Of a stretch of 50,353 bases of DNA, positions 5,567-14,579 are shown one piece after another (position 1 is the stretch's first letter; each line of letters begins with the position of its first letter). The position numbers and the translations under genes are program-made. The notes under the pieces were generated by a model. The model did not search any database, was not told the DNA's origin, and worked only from the letters and a program-made list of their open reading frames with translations. This DNA is from Terriglobia bacterium (GTDB taxonomy: Bacteria; Acidobacteriota; Terriglobia; Bryobacterales; Bryobacteraceae), in the NCBI GenBank assembly GCA_010084195.1, contig RGPS01000016.1:1-50353 (forward strand). The letters are read 5' to 3'.

Positions 5567-6088
5567 TTGGAAACCTTAAAAACTCTGATCCGCGAAGTGC
5601 CGGACTTTCCGAAACCCGGCATTCTTTTCTACGACATTACCACCCTGCTGAAGGACGCTGCCGGGTTTAAGTCGACTATTGACGCTTTTTCGTCCCACTA
5701 CCAGGACGTTGGTGTGGACGTTGTTCTCGGAATAGAAGCCCGTGGCTTCATTTTTGCGCCCGCGCTCGCCTACTCTCTGGGAGCAGGATTCGTCCCCGTC
5801 CGGAAGCCCAAAAAGCTCCCTGCCGAGACGGCTCGAATCTCTTACGACCTCGAATACGGCAGCGACACGCTGGAGATCCACAAGGATGCCATCAGCCCTG
5901 GCACCCGCGTCCTGATCGTTGACGATTTGCTGGCGACCGGGGGCACAGCCGGAGCCGTTACCAAACTGGTGGAGCAACTGGGCGGCACAGTCATTGGCGT
6001 TGGCTTCATGGTGGAACTAACGTTCCTAAATGGCCGTGACAAGCTGGCAGGCTACGACATCTTCTCTTTGCTGCAATACGACAAATGA
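5567..6088 (+). CDS. apt: adenine phosphoribosyltransferase
   Basis: Converts adenine and PRPP to AMP (purine salvage). The sequence is full length: [41 protein letters not shown] and the PRPP-binding loop [13 protein letters not shown]. With TTG 5567 the protein has 173 residues and begins like known Apt proteins ([14 protein letters not shown]). An upstream in-frame TTG at 5537 would add ten unconserved residues. No Shine-Dalgarno is visible; TTGAAC (5526-5531) and CACAAT (5549-5554), 17 bp apart, could be a promoter giving a very short leader. The next gene (ispE) starts in an ATGA overlap at 6085, and prs follows, so PRPP supply and PRPP use sit together. Confidence 0.9.
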
Positions 6089-6926
6089 CGCGCACCGCCA
6101 GCCTGCAGGCTTTTGCCAAACTAAACCTCGGGCTGCGGGTTCTGGCCAAACGGGCCGATGGCTACCATGAATTGAGGACTGTCTTCCAGACCATATCGCT
6201 GGCGGACAAGCTCGGTGTTGAGTATACGAGTTCGCGGAAAACTGAAGTGACAATTGATGGCACGCCTCATATTCCGGACAATCTGGTGGATCGTGCCTGC
6301 CGTATTCTGCTGGACGAATTGAGGATCACGGCGAGGGTGCGTTTCACGCTCAGCAAAGTGATTCCGGCCGGCGCGGGGCTGGGCGGTGGAAGTTCCGACG
6401 CTGCTGCCGTCCTGTTGAGCCTGCCGGTGCTGGCTGGTAAGCGCGTCCCGATGGCGGTTCTCAGTAATCTTGCGGCCCGGCTCGGCAGCGATGTCCCGTA
6501 CTTCCTGCACGGCGGCACGGCCCTGGGGCTGGGTCGTGGAGAAGAGCTATACCCGCTTCCGGAAGCGAAGGCGTCCAGCCCAAGCTGGATAGTTTCCAGC
6601 AGCAGGCATGGCAGGGCGAAGTGCTTCCGCCCGTGAACGATTTTGAAAGCGTGATCTTCGCCCGACACCCGGAACTGGGCAGAATTCGGAAGCGGCTGCT
6701 TGGCCTAGGCGCAAAATATGCAGCGATGACCGGAAGTGGGTCCGCTATCTTCGGTGTTTTTAACAACGCAGAGACAATTCTTCAAGCCCGGCAGGCCCTG
6801 TCCGGGGAGCACTCTTTTGCCGTCTCATTTCTTAGTCGTACCCGCTACCAGTCGTTATGGCGGCGGTCTCTAAAACCTCACTTGAAAGGTGCCGAATGGC
6901 CACCATTAAGCCTGTACGCACGATGA
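6085..6926 (+). pseudogene. ispE: 4-diphosphocytidyl-2-C-methyl-D-erythritol kinase (ispE), internal loss and frameshift
   Basis: Frame 1 from ATG 6085 gives the N-terminal GHMP kinase half: AKLNLGLRVLAKRADGYHEL, the ATP loop GAGLGGGSSDAA at about 96-107, LGSDVPYFLHGG and GRGEELYPLPEAK. It then runs into unrelated residues and stops at 6636. A second frame, open from well before 6573, carries the C-terminal half: VQPKLDSFQQQAWQGEVLPP, NDFESVIF, the third motif MTGSGSAIFG, and ends at 6926. About 20 residues between the two (the strand matching VAHPGVSIPTP in E. coli IspE) are missing. The lesion at about 6565-6600 is therefore a short out-of-frame loss, not just one base. IspE is essential where the MEP pathway is the only isoprenoid route, so this is either an assembly error or a real loss covered by another copy. 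The ATG overlaps the apt stop. Confidence 0.8.
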
Positions 6927-7867
6927 ACCCGGATCGAATCAAGGTCTTCACCGGCAGCGCCAACCAGCCTCTCACCGAAGCTGTTTGCCGGGAGTTGGGA
7001 ATCCCTCTTGGCGAGCTGAAGCTGCGGAAATTCTCCGATGGCGAAATCAACTGCCAGATTCTGGAGAACGTGCGTGGTGCGGACTGCTTCGTCGTGCAGC
7101 CTACCTGTTCTCCCGTGGAATTCCATCTGATGGAAGTCCTCTGCCTGATGGACGCGCTGAAGCGGTCATCAGCCCAGCGAATCACCGCCGTGCTCCCCTA
7201 CTACGGCTACGGACGCCAGGACCGCAAGGACAAGCCCCGTGTGCCGATTTCCGCCAAACTGGTCGCGTCCCTGCTGGAAACCGCTGGTGCGGATCGAATT
7301 ATGGCTCTCGACCTGCACGCCGCGCAGATTCAGGGTTTCTTCGATGTCCCGGTAGACCACCTTTTCTTCCGTCCGGTGATGATCGACTTCCTGAAGCAAC
7401 GGATTGTCCCCGACCTGATGGTTGTTTCCCCGGACGCCGGCGGCGTGGAGCGCGCGCGTTCCGTGGCCAAACGCCTCAACGCCCGGCTTGCCATTATCGA
7501 CAAGCGTCGTGAAGAAGCCAACGTCGCCGAAGTTATGAATGTAATTGGCAACGTTGTGGGCAAGAACTGCTTGATTGTAGACGACTTAATCGATACGGCC
7601 GGAACTCTGGTGAAGGGTGCTGACGCCCTGATGAAGCACGGTGCCGCTTCCGTTACCGCCTGCGCCACGCACGCCGTTCTCTCGGGACCCGCCGTGCAGC
7701 GAATTCAGGAATCCTGCATCACGGAGGTCATCGTCTCCGATTCGATTCCACTTACCGCAGAAGCTGCCGCCTGTGGCAAGATTCGGCAGCTATCCGTTGC
7801 CGGTCTGCTCGCCCGCGCCATTCAGTCGATCCACGAAGAAACCTCCGTCAGCATGCTGTTTGAGTAA
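6896..7867 (+). CDS. prs: ribose-phosphate pyrophosphokinase (PRPP synthase)
   Basis: Makes PRPP from ribose 5-phosphate and ATP. It is complete and typical: KVFTGSANQPL, KFSDGEINCQI, PYYGYGRQDRKDKPR, the HAAQIQGFFDVPVDHL region, the catalytic loop DKRREEANVAEVMN and the PRPP loop LIVDDLIDTAGT. The ATG at 6896 has GAAAGG seven bases before it and gives 323 residues; 6923 would give the usual core length and 6857 adds a tail that lies within ispE. It overlaps the end of the broken ispE by 31 bases. The last codons (TSVSMLFE) lie inside an imperfect duplication described separately. Confidence 0.93.
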   Translation: MATIKPVRTMNPDRIKVFTGSANQPLTEAVCRELGIPLGELKLRKFSDGEINCQILENVRGADCFVVQPTCSPVEFHLMEVLCLMDALKRSSAQRITAVLPYYGYGRQDRKDKPRVPISAKLVASLLETAGADRIMALDLHAAQIQGFFDVPVDHLFFRPVMIDFLKQRIVPDLMVVSPDAGGVERARSVAKRLNARLAIIDKRREEANVAEVMNVIGNVVGKNCLIVDDLIDTAGTLVKGADALMKHGAASVTACATHAVLSGPAVQRIQESCITEVIVSDSIPLTAEAAACGKIRQLSVAGLLARAIQSIHEETSVSMLFE

Positions 7868-10492: not shown

Positions 10493-11242
10493 TCAACTGC
10501 TCTTCTTGACCTTCACCACCGGGTCCGTCGGCCTGTAACCCAGTTCCAGACTCAAAACGTCAACCAGTTTCCCCAGCGTTTTCACCCTGGCCCAGTACTT
10601 GTCGTTCCCTTCCACCAGATGCCACGGAGCCGTTTTTGTGCTCGTCTTCAGCAACATCTCTTCCACCGCTTCTTCATAGAGCGGCCACTTTTCCCGATTC
10701 CGCCAGTCCTCGTCAGTTAACTTCCAGCTCTTGTAATGAGTTGTCCGACGTTCCTCAAAGCGATTTAACTGTTCCTCTCGGGAAATGTGGATCCAAAACT
10801 TCACCACAATCGCCCCGAAGTCCTGCAACTGGCGTTCAAATGAGTTGATCTCTTTGTAGGCGCGTTTCCACTCGTGCGACTTAGCGAAGCCCTCCACACG
10901 CTCGACCAAAACCCGGCCGTACCAGCTTCGGTCAAAGATTGCGATCTGCCCCTGCTCCGGGACCCGGGTCCAGAAGCGGTACAGGTAGTGCCTGGACTTC
11001 TCATCACCCTGCGGAGCACTGATCGGGTAAACGACGTACCCCCTTGGGTCCATCTTTTCCGTGATGCGCTTGATAGCACCACCCTTACCCGCAGCGTCCC
11101 AACCTTCAAACACAAGCACAACGGGGCGCTTCTGGTGAAAAACCTGAATTCCGAGTTCCCGCAGTTGTAGCTGGCGTCGCGCGAGTTCCGTCACGTACTC
11201 GGCACCGGGCAGGCTGAGCGAAAGATCCAGCGACTCAAGCAT
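10493..11242 (-). CDS. polyphosphate kinase 2 family protein, canonical half
   Basis: A 249-residue single-domain PPK2. Walker A GWDAAGKGG (47-55), DPRGYVVYPISAP, RHYLYRFWTRVP, Walker B with the canonical DRSWYGR (104-110), ERVEGF and the WHISREEQLNRF-type lid region are all present. PPK2 enzymes transfer phosphate between polyphosphate and nucleoside mono- or diphosphates. Its start overlaps the stop of the preceding PPK2 gene by eight bases (11235-11242), so the two are translated together. In two-domain class II PPK2 (polyphosphate:AMP phosphotransferase) the C-terminal domain is the active one, and this gene would correspond to it. A stand-alone ADP/GDP kinase or an AMP kinase are both possible. 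Confidence 0.85.
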   Translation of the reverse strand: MLESLDLSLSLPGAEYVTELARRQLQLRELGIQVFHQKRPVVLVFEGWDAAGKGGAIKRITEKMDPRGYVVYPISAPQGDEKSRHYLYRFWTRVPEQGQIAIFDRSWYGRVLVERVEGFAKSHEWKRAYKEINSFERQLQDFGAIVVKFWIHISREEQLNRFEERRTTHYKSWKLTDEDWRNREKWPLYEEAVEEMLLKTSTKTAPWHLVEGNDKYWARVKTLGKLVDVLSLELGYRPTDPVVKVKKSS

Positions 11243-12047
11243 CCTTCGCGTCCTCCTTGTCGTCCAGCCAGGCCATCGCGTTTCGAAGATCGGCGTCGGC
11301 TGCTTCTGCCGCGTCCGAGGCGGCCCGTGGAGGGGTATCCGCCCCGAGACGTTCTTCCAGCGCCATGATGATCGTTTTCAACATTTGCGCCAGCGCCCAG
11401 CGTCGCGACGTGGCCTCAATAACTGTCCACGGAGCCTCAGTCGCCTCCGTTATTTCCAGCATGTCTTCGGCAGCGGCCAGATACTCGTTGTACTTCTTGT
11501 GCCGCGCCCAATCCTCTTTGGTGATCCGCCAGGACTCCAGAGGATCAGCCGCAATTTTCTCGAAGCGCTTCTCCTGCTCCTTCCGGCTGATATGCAGAAA
11601 GAACTTGATGATCTCTGTACCGTTGTCGGCCAGCATCCGCTCAAAGTCAATGATGTCGCGAAAAGCTGCGCGCCACTGCTTTTCCGGAACCAGACCCTCC
11701 ACCCGCTCCTGAAGCAGACGGATGTACCAGCTCTGGTCAAAGATCGCCATTTCGCCGGCATTCGGGACACAGAGCCAAAACCGCCACAGCCAGGGCCGGC
11801 TCATTTCGAACGGTCGCGGCAAACTGATGGGGTGGAGTTTGAAGCCGCGGGGATCCAGTCTCTGGGTCAGCGTCGCGACGGAAGTGCCCTTCCCCGCAGC
11901 ATCCCAGCCTTCAAAGAGCACGATGGAAGACACTTTGTTGTCCCAGCAGGCTTTTTCCAGATCGTACATACGCCGCTGCAGGCCAGGCAGAACCCGGTTG
12001 AACTCTTCGGTGGAAAGCTTACGTTTCAGGTTGAGGTTTTCCAGCAT
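11235..12047 (-). CDS. polyphosphate kinase 2 family protein, degenerate Walker B half
   Basis: A second PPK2 domain: Walker A GWDAAGKGT (47-55), DPRGFKLHPISLP, RPWLWRFWLCVP, then FDQSWYIR where the family has FDRSWYGR, so Arg105 is replaced by Gln. The start ATG 12047 lies four bases after the dehydratase stop; starts further upstream lie inside that gene. A C-terminal tail of about 40 residues rich in Ala and Asp has no match to the fold. Compared with two-domain polyphosphate:AMP phosphotransferases, this gene would be the N-terminal, non-catalytic domain and the overlapping downstream gene the catalytic one. That the two form a complex is an inference. The placement in a sugar-acid operon is unusual. 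Confidence 0.8.
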   Translation of the reverse strand: MLENLNLKRKLSTEEFNRVLPGLQRRMYDLEKACWDNKVSSIVLFEGWDAAGKGTSVATLTQRLDPRGFKLHPISLPRPFEMSRPWLWRFWLCVPNAGEMAIFDQSWYIRLLQERVEGLVPEKQWRAAFRDIIDFERMLADNGTEIIKFFLHISRKEQEKRFEKIAADPLESWRITKEDWARHKKYNEYLAAAEDMLEITEATEAPWTVIEATSRRWALAQMLKTIIMALEERLGADTPPRAASDAAEAADADLRNAMAWLDDKEDAKDA

Positions 12048-12051
12048 CTGG

Positions 12052-13209
12052 TTACCAAATGGGGACGACGGCGGGCCCATCCTCCCGGAACACGTCCGCA
12101 TCCAGCCCATATCCGAAGCCGGGAGCGTCGGACAAACGCATCACGCCGTTCTGCGGGCGAGGGTCGTCGGTCAGAACCCAGTGTTTTTCAACACTACGAT
12201 AAATGTCAACATACTCAGCAAACGGAGTTAGTTCCGGCCCCAGCGTAGACAGGAAATGGTACGTGGCGGACCCCACTCCGTGGCAGACCAGTTTGGTGTG
12301 ATGGGCCTTGGCCAGGGCTGCAATCTTCGCGAGGCCGGTCGGCCCCCCGGCGCGGTAGATATCGGGCTGCACAATATCGACACAGCCCTCTTCCAGCAGT
12401 CGCTTGAAGCCCGCCAGCGTGTATTCGTGTTCCCCGCCGGTCACCATGGTGTTCACGGAATCGCGAATCCGCCGATAGCCGGCATAGTCGTCCGGCATCA
12501 CCGGCTCTTCCAGCCAGGCGATGTTGTATCTCTCCAGACGGTCATACATCCGGAGCGTATACGGCACATCCCAGCCCATGTAGATGTCGAGGGCAATGAA
12601 GGCGTCGGGCCCCAGAACTTCACGGGCACGCGCGACGGCAACTTCGTTCTTCGCCATGCCGGTCTCGCCGTGTGCCGGACCCCAGGGCACCGCGATTTTC
12701 ATGTTCTTGATGCCGAAGGCAGCCAGCGCCTCCGGGTCATAGCCGGTATAGTAAACGGGTAATTCCGGGCGGATTCGCCCCCCCAGGAGGTTAAAAACGG
12801 GTTGTCCCAGGAGCTTGCCCCGGGCATCCCAAAGCGCAATGTCCACTCCGGAAATGACCGCCTGCGTCAGACCACCGCGACCGTAGAAAATCGAGGCTCG
12901 GTACAACTGCTCCTGAATCAACTCATTTTCAAAGACAGTCCGCCCGACAATCAGCGCTCGCCATTGCTCGTCCAGCAGAACGGGAGCTGCACTGCCTTTC
13001 CCGCCGCCCACAAAACCGAAGCCACTAATCCCGGCCTCAGTCCCGTCGTCCAGGACAATCTCAATCACCGCAGCCGACATGGTTTGAAACCACGACGCCC
13101 GGGTTTCCCAATACTCCGGATACGCTGACATCGGATTCGCAATCACCGACCCTGTCAGCCAGGACTTACCCATTTTCGCGACGTGACACCGGACGTCGCG
13201 GATTTTCAC
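12052..13209 (-). CDS. enolase-superfamily dehydratase, L-rhamnonate dehydratase-like
   Basis: A 385-residue mandelate racemase/muconate lactonizing type enzyme. The Mg ligands are seen as LDIYMGWD, WLEEPVMPDD and TGGEHEYTL, and the general base region as VCHGVGSATYHF. The GGEHEYTL-GFKRLL-DIVQPDIYRAGG series is most like L-rhamnonate dehydratases. The reaction would be dehydration of a sugar acid to a 2-keto-3-deoxy acid. The gene starts with GTG, overlapping the GNAT stop (GTGA at 13206). It sits two genes after a KDPG-type aldolase, the enzyme expected to cleave the keto-deoxy product, which supports a sugar-acid pathway. The true substrate (rhamnonate, fuconate, galactonate or another) is not decided by sequence. 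Confidence 0.8.
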   Translation of the reverse strand: MKIRDVRCHVAKMGKSWLTGSVIANPMSAYPEYWETRASWFQTMSAAVIEIVLDDGTEAGISGFGFVGGGKGSAAPVLLDEQWRALIVGRTVFENELIQEQLYRASIFYGRGGLTQAVISGVDIALWDARGKLLGQPVFNLLGGRIRPELPVYYTGYDPEALAAFGIKNMKIAVPWGPAHGETGMAKNEVAVARAREVLGPDAFIALDIYMGWDVPYTLRMYDRLERYNIAWLEEPVMPDDYAGYRRIRDSVNTMVTGGEHEYTLAGFKRLLEEGCVDIVQPDIYRAGGPTGLAKIAALAKAHHTKLVCHGVGSATYHFLSTLGPELTPFAEYVDIYRSVEKHWVLTDDPRPQNGVMRLSDAPGFGYGLDADVFREDGPAVVPIW

Positions 13210-13526
13210 AGCAGGTCCTGGTATTCGGGCCGTTTGGCCATGAACGCATGGACATAGGAGCAGGTTGCCAGAACCTTGTACTTGTTCTCGCGAGCCCAGG
13301 CAAGCGCAGCGGTGGCCAGTTTGCCGGCCAGTCCCTGCCCCTGATAGTCGCTGGGAACCTCTGTATGGAAGATTTCCATCAGGCTCTCGGCCAGCAGATA
13401 GTCGAGGTGGGCCGGATTCCGCGAGGAACCAGCTTCAAAACGACACAAGGTCCGGTTGTGCCGGATCTTCAGTTCGCGCTGCTGCGGCTGGTGCTGTTGC
13501 GGCTCAGAGGCCTGTTGCTCGCTCAC
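13206..13526 (-). CDS. small GNAT-like acetyltransferase (YidJ/GNAT_acetyltr type)
   Basis: A 106-residue protein with a Gln-rich first 17 residues and then the short GNAT core of the PF14542 kind: FHTEVPSDYQGQGLAGKLATAALAWARENKYKVLATCSYVHAFMAKRPEY. The QGQGLAGKL segment is the acetyl-CoA loop and CSYVHAFM the conserved end. Acceptors for these mini-GNATs are mostly unknown. It is coupled by an ATGA overlap to the aldolase upstream and by GTGA to the dehydratase downstream. A role in modifying the pathway enzymes or detoxifying an intermediate would be speculation. Confidence 0.75.
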   Translation of the reverse strand: MSEQQASEPQQHQPQQRELKIRHNRTLCRFEAGSSRNPAHLDYLLAESLMEIFHTEVPSDYQGQGLAGKLATAALAWARENKYKVLATCSYVHAFMAKRPEYQDLL

Positions 13527-14182
13527 GCTGCCATCTCTTCGCGAGCCTTGGCGATCACGGCCAGATACTGCCGGGCGCGCGCTTCCATCTCGTCGTAGCG
13601 ATTCTCTTTGATCAGCTTGGCATCGATGAGTTCTCCACCCACCGCCACCGCGCAGGCACCGGCTTTCAGAAATTCGCCGGCAGTTTCCAGGTTGACGCCA
13701 CCGGTCGGGATCATTTCGATGTGAGGCAGCGGTCCCTTGAGCGCCTTGATGTACTTCGGGCCACCGACCGCATTGGCGGGGAATACCTTCACCACATCGG
13801 CACCTGCTTCCCAGGCGGTCAGGACTTCAGTCGGCGTCAGAGCGCCGGCACAAATCACCTTCGAGTAGCGCTTTGCCATCTCAATGGTGGCCAGTTTCAG
13901 GTTCGGGGTAACAAAGAACTGAGCCCCGGCCAGCATGCAGGAGCGAGCGGTTTCGGGGTCCAGAACTGTGCCCGCCCCAAGGACAAGCTTATCGCCGAAC
14001 TTGTCGGCCAGCTTTTCGAGAGCCTTCAAAGCGCCAGGGACGGTCATCGTCACTTCAGCAGCGCGCACGCCACCGTTATAAATAGCCTCAACGGACAGGA
14101 GAGCCGTCTCAGCGGAAGCAGTCCGGACGACGGGGACAAGGCCGATCTTCGTGATAGCGGCCAGAATTTGTTGTGCGGTCAC
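13523..14182 (-). CDS. KDPG/KHG-type aldolase
   Basis: A 219-residue class I aldolase of the Eda family. Glu43 (AAEVTMTVPGA) and Schiff-base Lys132 (VVKVFPANAVGG) match the catalytic pair of E. coli Eda, and LGAGTV, FFVTPN, CAGALTPTE and IPTGGV complete the fold. It splits 2-keto-3-deoxy-6-phospho sugar acids, or close analogues, into pyruvate and an aldehyde. It is the first gene of the five-gene minus-strand operon and starts with GTG at 14182. TACCTT lies six bases before that GTG and no Shine-Dalgarno is seen, so a leaderless message is possible. No sugar-acid kinase is nearby; the family member here may accept an unphosphorylated product, or the kinase is elsewhere. Confidence 0.85.
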   Translation of the reverse strand: MTAQQILAAITKIGLVPVVRTASAETALLSVEAIYNGGVRAAEVTMTVPGALKALEKLADKFGDKLVLGAGTVLDPETARSCMLAGAQFFVTPNLKLATIEMAKRYSKVICAGALTPTEVLTAWEAGADVVKVFPANAVGGPKYIKALKGPLPHIEMIPTGGVNLETAGEFLKAGACAVAVGGELIDAKLIKENRYDEMEARARQYLAVIAKAREEMAA

Positions 14183-14273: not shown

Positions 14274-14579
14274 TTGGATGACCTGCGGTTCCAGTTCGAG
14301 TGGGATGAGGCGAAGGCCGGAACAAATTTTCGTAAGCATGGAATATCATTCCGACTGGCATCGTCTGTCTTTAGCGATCCGGCTGTCTTTACAACTGCGG
14401 GCCTTGCACACAGTGAAACCGAAGAGCGTTGGTTTTCAGTAGGCTTGGCGCAAAATGGCGTGGTTCTCTCGGTGGCTCACCTGTGGAGTATCCTGGAATC
14501 AGGGTTGGTTAAGGTTCGAATCATCAATGCCCGCCGGTCGACCGCAAATGAACTTCGTTACTATCTGGAGAGCAAATGA
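14274..14579 (+). CDS. brnT: BrnT family toxin
   Basis: A 101-residue type II toxin of the BrnT (RelE-like ribonuclease) family: FEWDEAKAGTNFRKHGISF at the start, VFSDPAVFTT, ERWFSVGLAQNGVVLSVAH and IINARRSTANELRYY at the end, which hold the usual conserved Asp, Lys-His, Arg and Arg residues. The family inhibits translation by RNA cleavage. The frame starts at TTG 14274; an ATG at 14278 is out of frame, and no better start exists before FEWDEAKA. It overlaps the antitoxin by an ATGA at 14576. An intact pair next to a stretch of broken genes is typical of a small mobile or addictive island. Confidence 0.85.
   Translation: MDDLRFQFEWDEAKAGTNFRKHGISFRLASSVFSDPAVFTTAGLAHSETEERWFSVGLAQNGVVLSVAHLWSILESGLVKVRIINARRSTANELRYYLESK

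Follow-up and report, generated by a model that had tools for sequence, protein, structure and literature searches.

An overlapping gene pair in Acidobacteriota, probably a two-gene counterpart of two-domain class II PPK2

The closest described relatives of the genes discussed here are the two-domain class II PPK2s, or polyphosphate:AMP phosphotransferases (PAPs), such as PA3455 of P. aeruginosa (PDB 3CZP) and the PAP of A. johnsonii. Two PPK2 domains follow one another in a single chain; the N-terminal one is termed inactive, with its role unstated, in the part of PMC8776046 that deals with these proteins. The same part of that source gives Gly as the class II signature residue, against Asn or Glu in classes I and III, and records that single-domain class II enzymes exist too (PMC8776046). 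The first-pass annotation of this DNA, which had described known class II PPK2s as fusions of two domains, was thus right that fused members are known and too narrow for the class as a whole.

We have followed up two adjacent genes, called A and B here, in a 50,353-nucleotide stretch of Terriglobia DNA (the window). They are orthologous to the two PAP domains and stand in the same order. B is canonical and carries the class II Gly, like the C-terminal half of PAP; A is altered, like the N-terminal half. They differ from PAP in being two genes, without a covalent linker, and from PA3455 in that its N-domain has lost the Walker-B Asp, which A keeps. We consider it probable, at roughly two chances in three, that the pair is a two-domain class II PPK2 encoded by two genes and works like PAP. 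A search of open-licence full texts found no two-gene or split class II PPK2. The features on which the argument turns are these:

11235..12047, minus strand: gene A, 270 aa, PPK2-fold protein, N-domain orthologue of two-domain class II PPK2
10493..11242, minus strand: gene B, 249 aa, class II PPK2, C-domain orthologue, catalytic residues complete
11235..11242, minus strand: 8-base overlap ATGCTTGA, the start of B within the end of A
11252..11258, minus strand: AAGGAGG, Shine-Dalgarno-like, within the end of A, 9 bases 5′ of the B ATG
11733..11735, minus strand: Gln105 codon of A, which reads FDQSWY; the site is Arg in 120/120 C/B domains
10928..10930, minus strand: Arg105 codon of B, which reads FDRSWY
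11553..11555, minus strand: Ile165 codon of A, at the lid Arg site (FtPPK2 R178), lost in 121/122 N/A domains
10748..10750, minus strand: Arg165 codon of B, in the lid R-X3-R motif (FtPPK2 R178)

(N/A denotes PAP N-domains together with A proteins, C/B the C-domains together with B proteins.)

Both proteins belong to PF03976 (PPK2), scoring 215.8 (A) and 290.2 bits (B) against a cut-off of 22.3. They are about 42% identical to each other and are the sole PPK2 matches in the window's genome (6.5 Mb, 94% complete). The eight shared bases, and the DQSWY of the first gene against the DRSWY of the second, are as the first reading of the sequence had them. For A, a start at 12047 is favoured over the longer ORF start at 12110, as 17 of 18 A genes, the window's among the 18, begin with MLEN or VLEN and the remaining one with MLEK. 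A GGAG- or GAGG-like stretch precedes B, as judged by eye, in most of 17 stretches from the window and its relatives, and the overlap probably couples the translation of B to that of A. Among relatives the junction varies: the genes overlap by 8 bases or by 1, or are 2 to 19 bases apart. A programmed frameshift joining A and B is unsupported, since the frame relation differs among relatives.

Annotation by score misses such a pair. Under the PAP model TIGR03708 (cut-off 547.65) neither protein passes singly, A alone reaching 351.9 bits and B alone 382.6, and the two read as one chain reach 724.3 and pass. The pair fails the one-protein cut-off by construction, for the model describes one polypeptide and here there are two reading frames with an 8-base overlap. 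Its domain order, N-type and then C-type, is that of A-B when the types are assigned by descent; by score, A and B each match the C-half of the model best. NCBI's second PAP model, NF050016 (PolyPhAMPPhtase, cut-off 800), gives the joined read 461.1 bits, which is below threshold. The joined chain is a reading device, in which the code word TGAG is taken as E at the A stop.

The same joined chain was modelled with AlphaFold2 from an alignment of the window's joined read and 39 naturally fused rows; two alternative alignments were left unused because MAFFT had placed lone A rows on the B half. The model has a mean pLDDT of 90.5 and a pTM of 0.85, with residues 237-265 (the tail of A) below 50. 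Its best Foldseek match is 3czp (504 columns, TM 0.84/0.92), and VIA-align places 454 residues on 3czp_B at 2.1 Å with a Z of 40.9. Both domains fit at once, and the predicted arrangement is therefore that of PA3455. The complex model proposed at first pass was thus made as a one-chain prediction, in which A-B can be accommodated in the PA3455 arrangement. That arrangement may also have been carried over from PA3455, an old PDB entry, or be generic to PPK2 dimers.

The case for descent comes from trees of up to 261 domains. In a FastTree of 261 rows, first and second domains separate (123 and 122 rows, including three contig-end pieces) with supports of 90 and 91. A quick IQ-TREE search on 133 rows likewise keeps 60/60 first domains apart from 60/60 second ones (SH-aLRT 90 and 83). 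A careful IQ-TREE analysis of 61 rows, selected mostly for intact motifs, gives 100/100 for the N/A clade, 93/91 for the C/B clade and 100/100 for the whole two-domain set. The single-domain class II enzymes (B. cereus 9GIA, L. fusiformis 9H8J), which share the fold and the class II signature with B, fall outside that set; the class I and III enzymes, with the same P-loop fold and motifs as A and B, are separate as well. Dropped before the 261-row tree were two copies of the window (L001, L002), pieces shorter than 170 aa, 17 canonical PAP loci of L034-L054, and L063, L066, L102 and L154, which lie on the same contigs as L006, L016, L153 and L097, respectively.

Topologies that break this pattern fare badly in the AU test. 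Forcing all split A and B proteins into one clade costs 85.9 log units (p = 4.9e-9), uniting A and B of the window's type costs 166.3 (p = 3.5e-44), and placing A with B and C costs 68.8 (p = 5.9e-4). As a check on shared loss of catalysis as the driver, 66 motif and lid columns were removed, leaving 184. With classes I and III also left out, the two clades persist (N/A 99/94, C/B 97/92), and a joint A+B clade is rejected for all split pairs (p = 0.002) and for the window type (p = 2e-4). When the class III outgroup is kept in the stripped alignment, its long branch attaches within N/A, so that the root falls inside that group; all C/B rows and 11 other single-domain rows then form one clade (99/95) with no A in it. 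Judged by these alignments, A shares its descent with the N-domain of two-domain PPK2, and B with the C-domain. The phylogeny suggested at first pass thus placed A with the N-domains and B with the C-domains, those of PA3455 included, and the outcome that would have spoken against the idea, both genes falling with single-domain classes, did not occur. That the gene order repeats the domain order of the fused protein stands on the same trees, in which upstream genes are N-type and downstream genes C-type.

The residues agree with the trees, in a way that shifts attention from one motif to another. B has D49, K53, D104, R105, the class II Gly of DRSWYG (G109), R161, R165, K171 and R183. A keeps D49 and K53 of Walker A and D104 of Walker B, has Ile at the class II Gly site, and shows Q105, I165, E171 and H183 where catalytic PPK2s have R, R, K and R. 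A and the N-domains deviate together at sites that are almost invariant in 135 catalytic rows. Arg165 is kept in all C/B domains (120/120) and in 16/16 single-domain rows of classes I-III, in none of 62 fused N-domains and in one of 60 split A proteins; in its place, 113 of the 122 N/A rows have a hydrophobic residue (L85, I18, M10). K171 (FtPPK2 Lys184) is found in 0/122 N/A rows and in 106/120 C/B rows, 13 more of which have Arg, and R183 in 0/122 and 119/120. By alignment, Arg165 of B is the second Arg of the lid R-X3-R and corresponds to Arg178 of FtPPK2, which the relevant part of the FtPPK2 report puts near enough for interaction with polyphosphate (PMC4748334). The sole N/A row with Arg165, gene A of L153 (G061), still has neither K171 nor R183.

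The Walker-B change noted at first pass did not hold up as the shared lesion. In the 122 N/A rows the site of Gln105 reads R56 H22 G16 Q15 T6 S4 D1 L1 K1; the 17 canonical PAP-type N-domains have G13 S3 D1 there, and the other fused N-domains keep Arg in 35/45. The DQSWY of A is thus not the decay seen in the fused protein, and Gln as a shared inactivating change was rejected. The lowest parsimony count has Arg at the root and 25 changes, so that loss of this Arg is recurrent. (Three contig-end pieces, L077, L141 and L161, are excluded from parsimony and residue counts.) All four Walker residues survive in 30 of the 122 N/A domains, and Arg165 is lost in all thirty, which makes the lid change the most general mark of an N-type domain. 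Among fused proteins, L091, L095, L097, L100, L103 and similar ones keep DRSWY in the N-half; descriptions of the N-domain as inactive may have been drawn from proteins in which that half is more decayed. The lid, in which a single change distinguishes almost all the N-type domains examined, thus replaces the Walker-B motif as the place to look.

From these residues we infer that the lid change stops catalysis in A, a loss read from residues alone in a protein that keeps Walker A and the Mg-binding Asp. B would be expected to phosphorylate nucleoside monophosphates from polyphosphate. A is nevertheless a maintained gene to judge by its codons, with a dN/dS of 0.009-0.13 in eight genome pairs of the genus (first 236 codons), which indicates purifying selection. 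B has 0.005-0.05 where computable in the same pairs; A is somewhat higher and far below 1. The ratios are rough, with dS near saturation in most pairs, one B value missing and the tail of A left out.

The pairing is kept in relatives. An A orthologue at 55-100% identity occurs in 18 of 61 genomes (the window's own and 60 relatives); a complete B lies directly downstream in 16, and in the other two the start of B is present and the contig end cuts it. The pair is therefore not a chance neighbourhood. It is patchy all the same, as it is present in 10 of 19 genomes of the window's genus. In a sample of 297 genomes of the phylum, 76 matched TIGR03708 at 1e-70 and 52 exceeded its cut-off; 13, the window's included, have two separate half-length rows and were all classed as split, as were G065, G075 and G150. 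The same split pair, which the first-pass annotation had proposed to seek in Acidobacteria, is thus there, and in Chloroflexota too: a scan of named genomes gave 79 loci, and among the two-domain ones the split form occurs in Acidobacteriota and Chloroflexota. Fused forms with an A-like N-half occur in Acidobacteriota, Chloroflexota, Bacillota, Planctomycetota, Gemmatimonadota, Calditrichota and others. The tree rows comprise 62 fused N-domains and 60 split A proteins (46 from the window's phylum, by name or kinship, and 14 from Chloroflexota). A full B row follows A in 58 of the 60, and in L004 and L020 the contig ends after the start of B. Loci were chosen by similarity to A or TIGR03708, so the numbers per phylum should not be taken as a census. 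In assembled metagenomes, a frameshift or stop inside a fused gene may in some cases have been called a split, with L155, L156 and L186 as candidates.

B genes lacking an A were sought in a class sample centred on Chloroflexota (120 genomes, 16 matched), which gave three strong C-type-looking rows without a listed partner. In one, G431, a divergent A adjoins the C-type row, and the other two, G398 and G430, are placed beside single-domain class II; G414 has an A-type fragment where its contig stops, and six weaker rows (240-245 bits) lay outside the follow-up. Lone rows in the phylum sample were a single-domain protein in G148 (L160) and a row in G196 that begins at a contig end (L161); here a 160-residue piece in G160 and ten weaker rows (240-252 bits) lay outside the follow-up.

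To call the pair "split", as was done at first, is apt insofar as the trees make it the two-gene counterpart of the fused enzyme; the direction of change is not given by the trees. On four subtrees (N/A and C/B from each of two trees) a fused ancestor needs 5, 6, 6 and 6 changes and a split ancestor 6, 6, 6 and 5, a tie. Fused loci are nested among split ones. For the L098/L101 type and for L157 the mixed group has support above 90 in the first-domain and second-domain halves of the 261-row tree alike; for L093 and L088 the support is weaker. By the usual fusion argument, such neighbouring lineages, one with the pair joined and the other with it separate, suggest that the two proteins act together also where they are separate. 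That the pair is the ancestral tandem state that preceded fusion, and not a split fusion, is a tentative reading to which we give a little less than an even chance. Tandem duplication should yield separate genes first, and the nesting points the same way; the tied counts do not favour it, and the fused forms are taxonomically wider, in a sample picked by similarity to A.

The surroundings of the pair are of two kinds. In the window, A and B lie at the end of what had been described as a sugar-acid operon:

12052..13209, minus strand: enolase-superfamily (MR/MLE) gene, upstream neighbour, its stop 4 bases before the A start
13206..13526, minus strand: GCN5-related N-acetyltransferase, upstream neighbour
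13523..14182, minus strand: KDPG/KHG aldolase, upstream neighbour

The genes upstream of A are spaced by overlaps or 4-base gaps. All three are upstream in 4 of the 18 A-bearing genomes (the window's, G003, G011 and G016). In G015 (L164, about 7601-7644) the aldolase, the acetyltransferase and A-B are kept and MR/MLE is absent, either by loss from the operon or because the gene was gained elsewhere. At the other 13 context loci the retrieved flank, in some cases a short one, had none of the three genes. The sugar-acid home is not typical of the pair, being seen in 5 of 18 A-bearing genomes with the window included.

Looking more widely, the longest ORF upstream of A was examined in 26 loci and ten of the proteins were scanned for domains. 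PPK1 is upstream in L069, L073 and L175. In L084, a distant relative, A is preceded at 9 bases by the end of an MR/MLE gene separate from that of the window; in L072 the gene that ends 17 bases upstream of A encodes a MOFRL/DUF4147 protein, which we take to be of the glycerate kinase type. These two loci keep the sugar-acid home from being dismissed. Other upstream proteins are an MFS transporter (L071) and cytochrome c (L166), with MacB/FtsX (L173) and DUF3604 (L070) farther off. In L081 (1348-3918) a protein with CYTH, Ppx/GppA_III and CHAD domains ends 22 bases before A, a mix that suggests polyphosphate binding or regulation.

With the PPK1 of the window's genome as query, 9 of 60 split loci show PPK1 next to the pair, a count in which L074 and L076 are near-identical and for which 1.5 kb on both sides was available in only 22 of the 60. 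Eight are on the same strand, upstream in L069, L073 and L016 (the contig of L175) and downstream in L074, L076, L079, L080 and L087; L159 has it on the opposite strand. PPK1 also adjoins the fused L088, L121 and L062. It is upstream in Acidobacteriota loci and downstream in Chloroflexota loci and L088, as if an operon for making and using polyphosphate existed in two gene orders. From its recurrence we take polyphosphate metabolism to be a recurrent home of the pair and the sugar-acid home to be local. In the window's genome PPK1 is on another contig (833.9 bits), and no Ppx/GppA match was found in this 94% complete assembly, where a control search matched 10 of 14 known genomes; the A-B pair may thus be a main way to draw on polyphosphate.

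Under the reading we prefer, PPK1 would make polyphosphate and B would transfer its phosphate to AMP or another nucleoside monophosphate. Together A and B would form a heteromer, its domains arranged as in PA3455; within it A would transfer no phosphate and serve as a structural or regulatory partner of B, perhaps holding polyphosphate or nucleotide near the B active site. A bolder version, on which our judgement is evenly balanced, is that Acidobacteriota and Chloroflexota have an obligate heteromeric PPK2 in which A is a lid-dead pseudokinase required for, or controlling, B, often in one operon with PPK1; that the pair may be a living pre-fusion form of two-domain PAP; and that the hydrophobic residue at 165 is a gained N-type function, not mere decay. 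If so, the change of Arg165 to L, I or M would explain why the N-half is retained. With the halves separate, the activity of B can be measured in the presence or absence of A, and mutations can be confined to A, so that the role of an N-type domain becomes directly testable.

Other accounts of the pair have to be set against this one. A and B could be two independent homo-oligomeric PPK2s that share an operon, A having another substrate or direction. The three Walker residues that A keeps under selection, the thirty N/A domains with all four, and the homotetramers reported for other PPK2s in the relevant parts of two papers (PMC4748334, PMC12257356) are what one would expect of such enzymes. 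We nevertheless think this unlikely, as A is without the lid residues R165, K171 and R183, is never without B in examined loci where the contig allows, and is fused with B in many lineages. A recent duplication of B, specific to the lineage, could have produced an A that resembles fused PAP by chance, which would suit the 42% identity and the preference of both proteins for the C-half of TIGR03708; this was rejected by the AU tests given above, with and without the catalytic columns.

Nor does A look like a decaying remnant of a fused enzyme. The loss of the Walker-B Arg and of lid residues could be so read, but the frame is intact in 18/18 A genes of the window and its relatives, A is retained over two phyla, and a pseudogene is rejected by the dN/dS values; we regard this as extremely improbable. 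Service to the sugar-acid pathway of the window's operon would account for the tight junction with MR/MLE and for the similar neighbours in L084 and L072. Against it are the rarity of the full set among A-bearing genomes, the persistence of A-B in G015 without MR/MLE, and the other close upstream genes, namely PPK1, MFS, cytochrome c and CHAD proteins, so that it seems to us improbable.

Two further features of the window lie apart from the pair. At 6085-6926 on the plus strand an IspE-like GHMP kinase is divided between two overlapping ORFs, an N-part at 6085-6636 and a C-part at 6621-6926 (Pfam GHMP_kinases_N and _C). The IspE gene is usually essential, and the break is possibly a frameshift or an assembly error. 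At 14274-14579, also on the plus strand, there is a gene for a ribonuclease toxin of the BrnT type (PF04365), which belongs to a type II toxin-antitoxin family.
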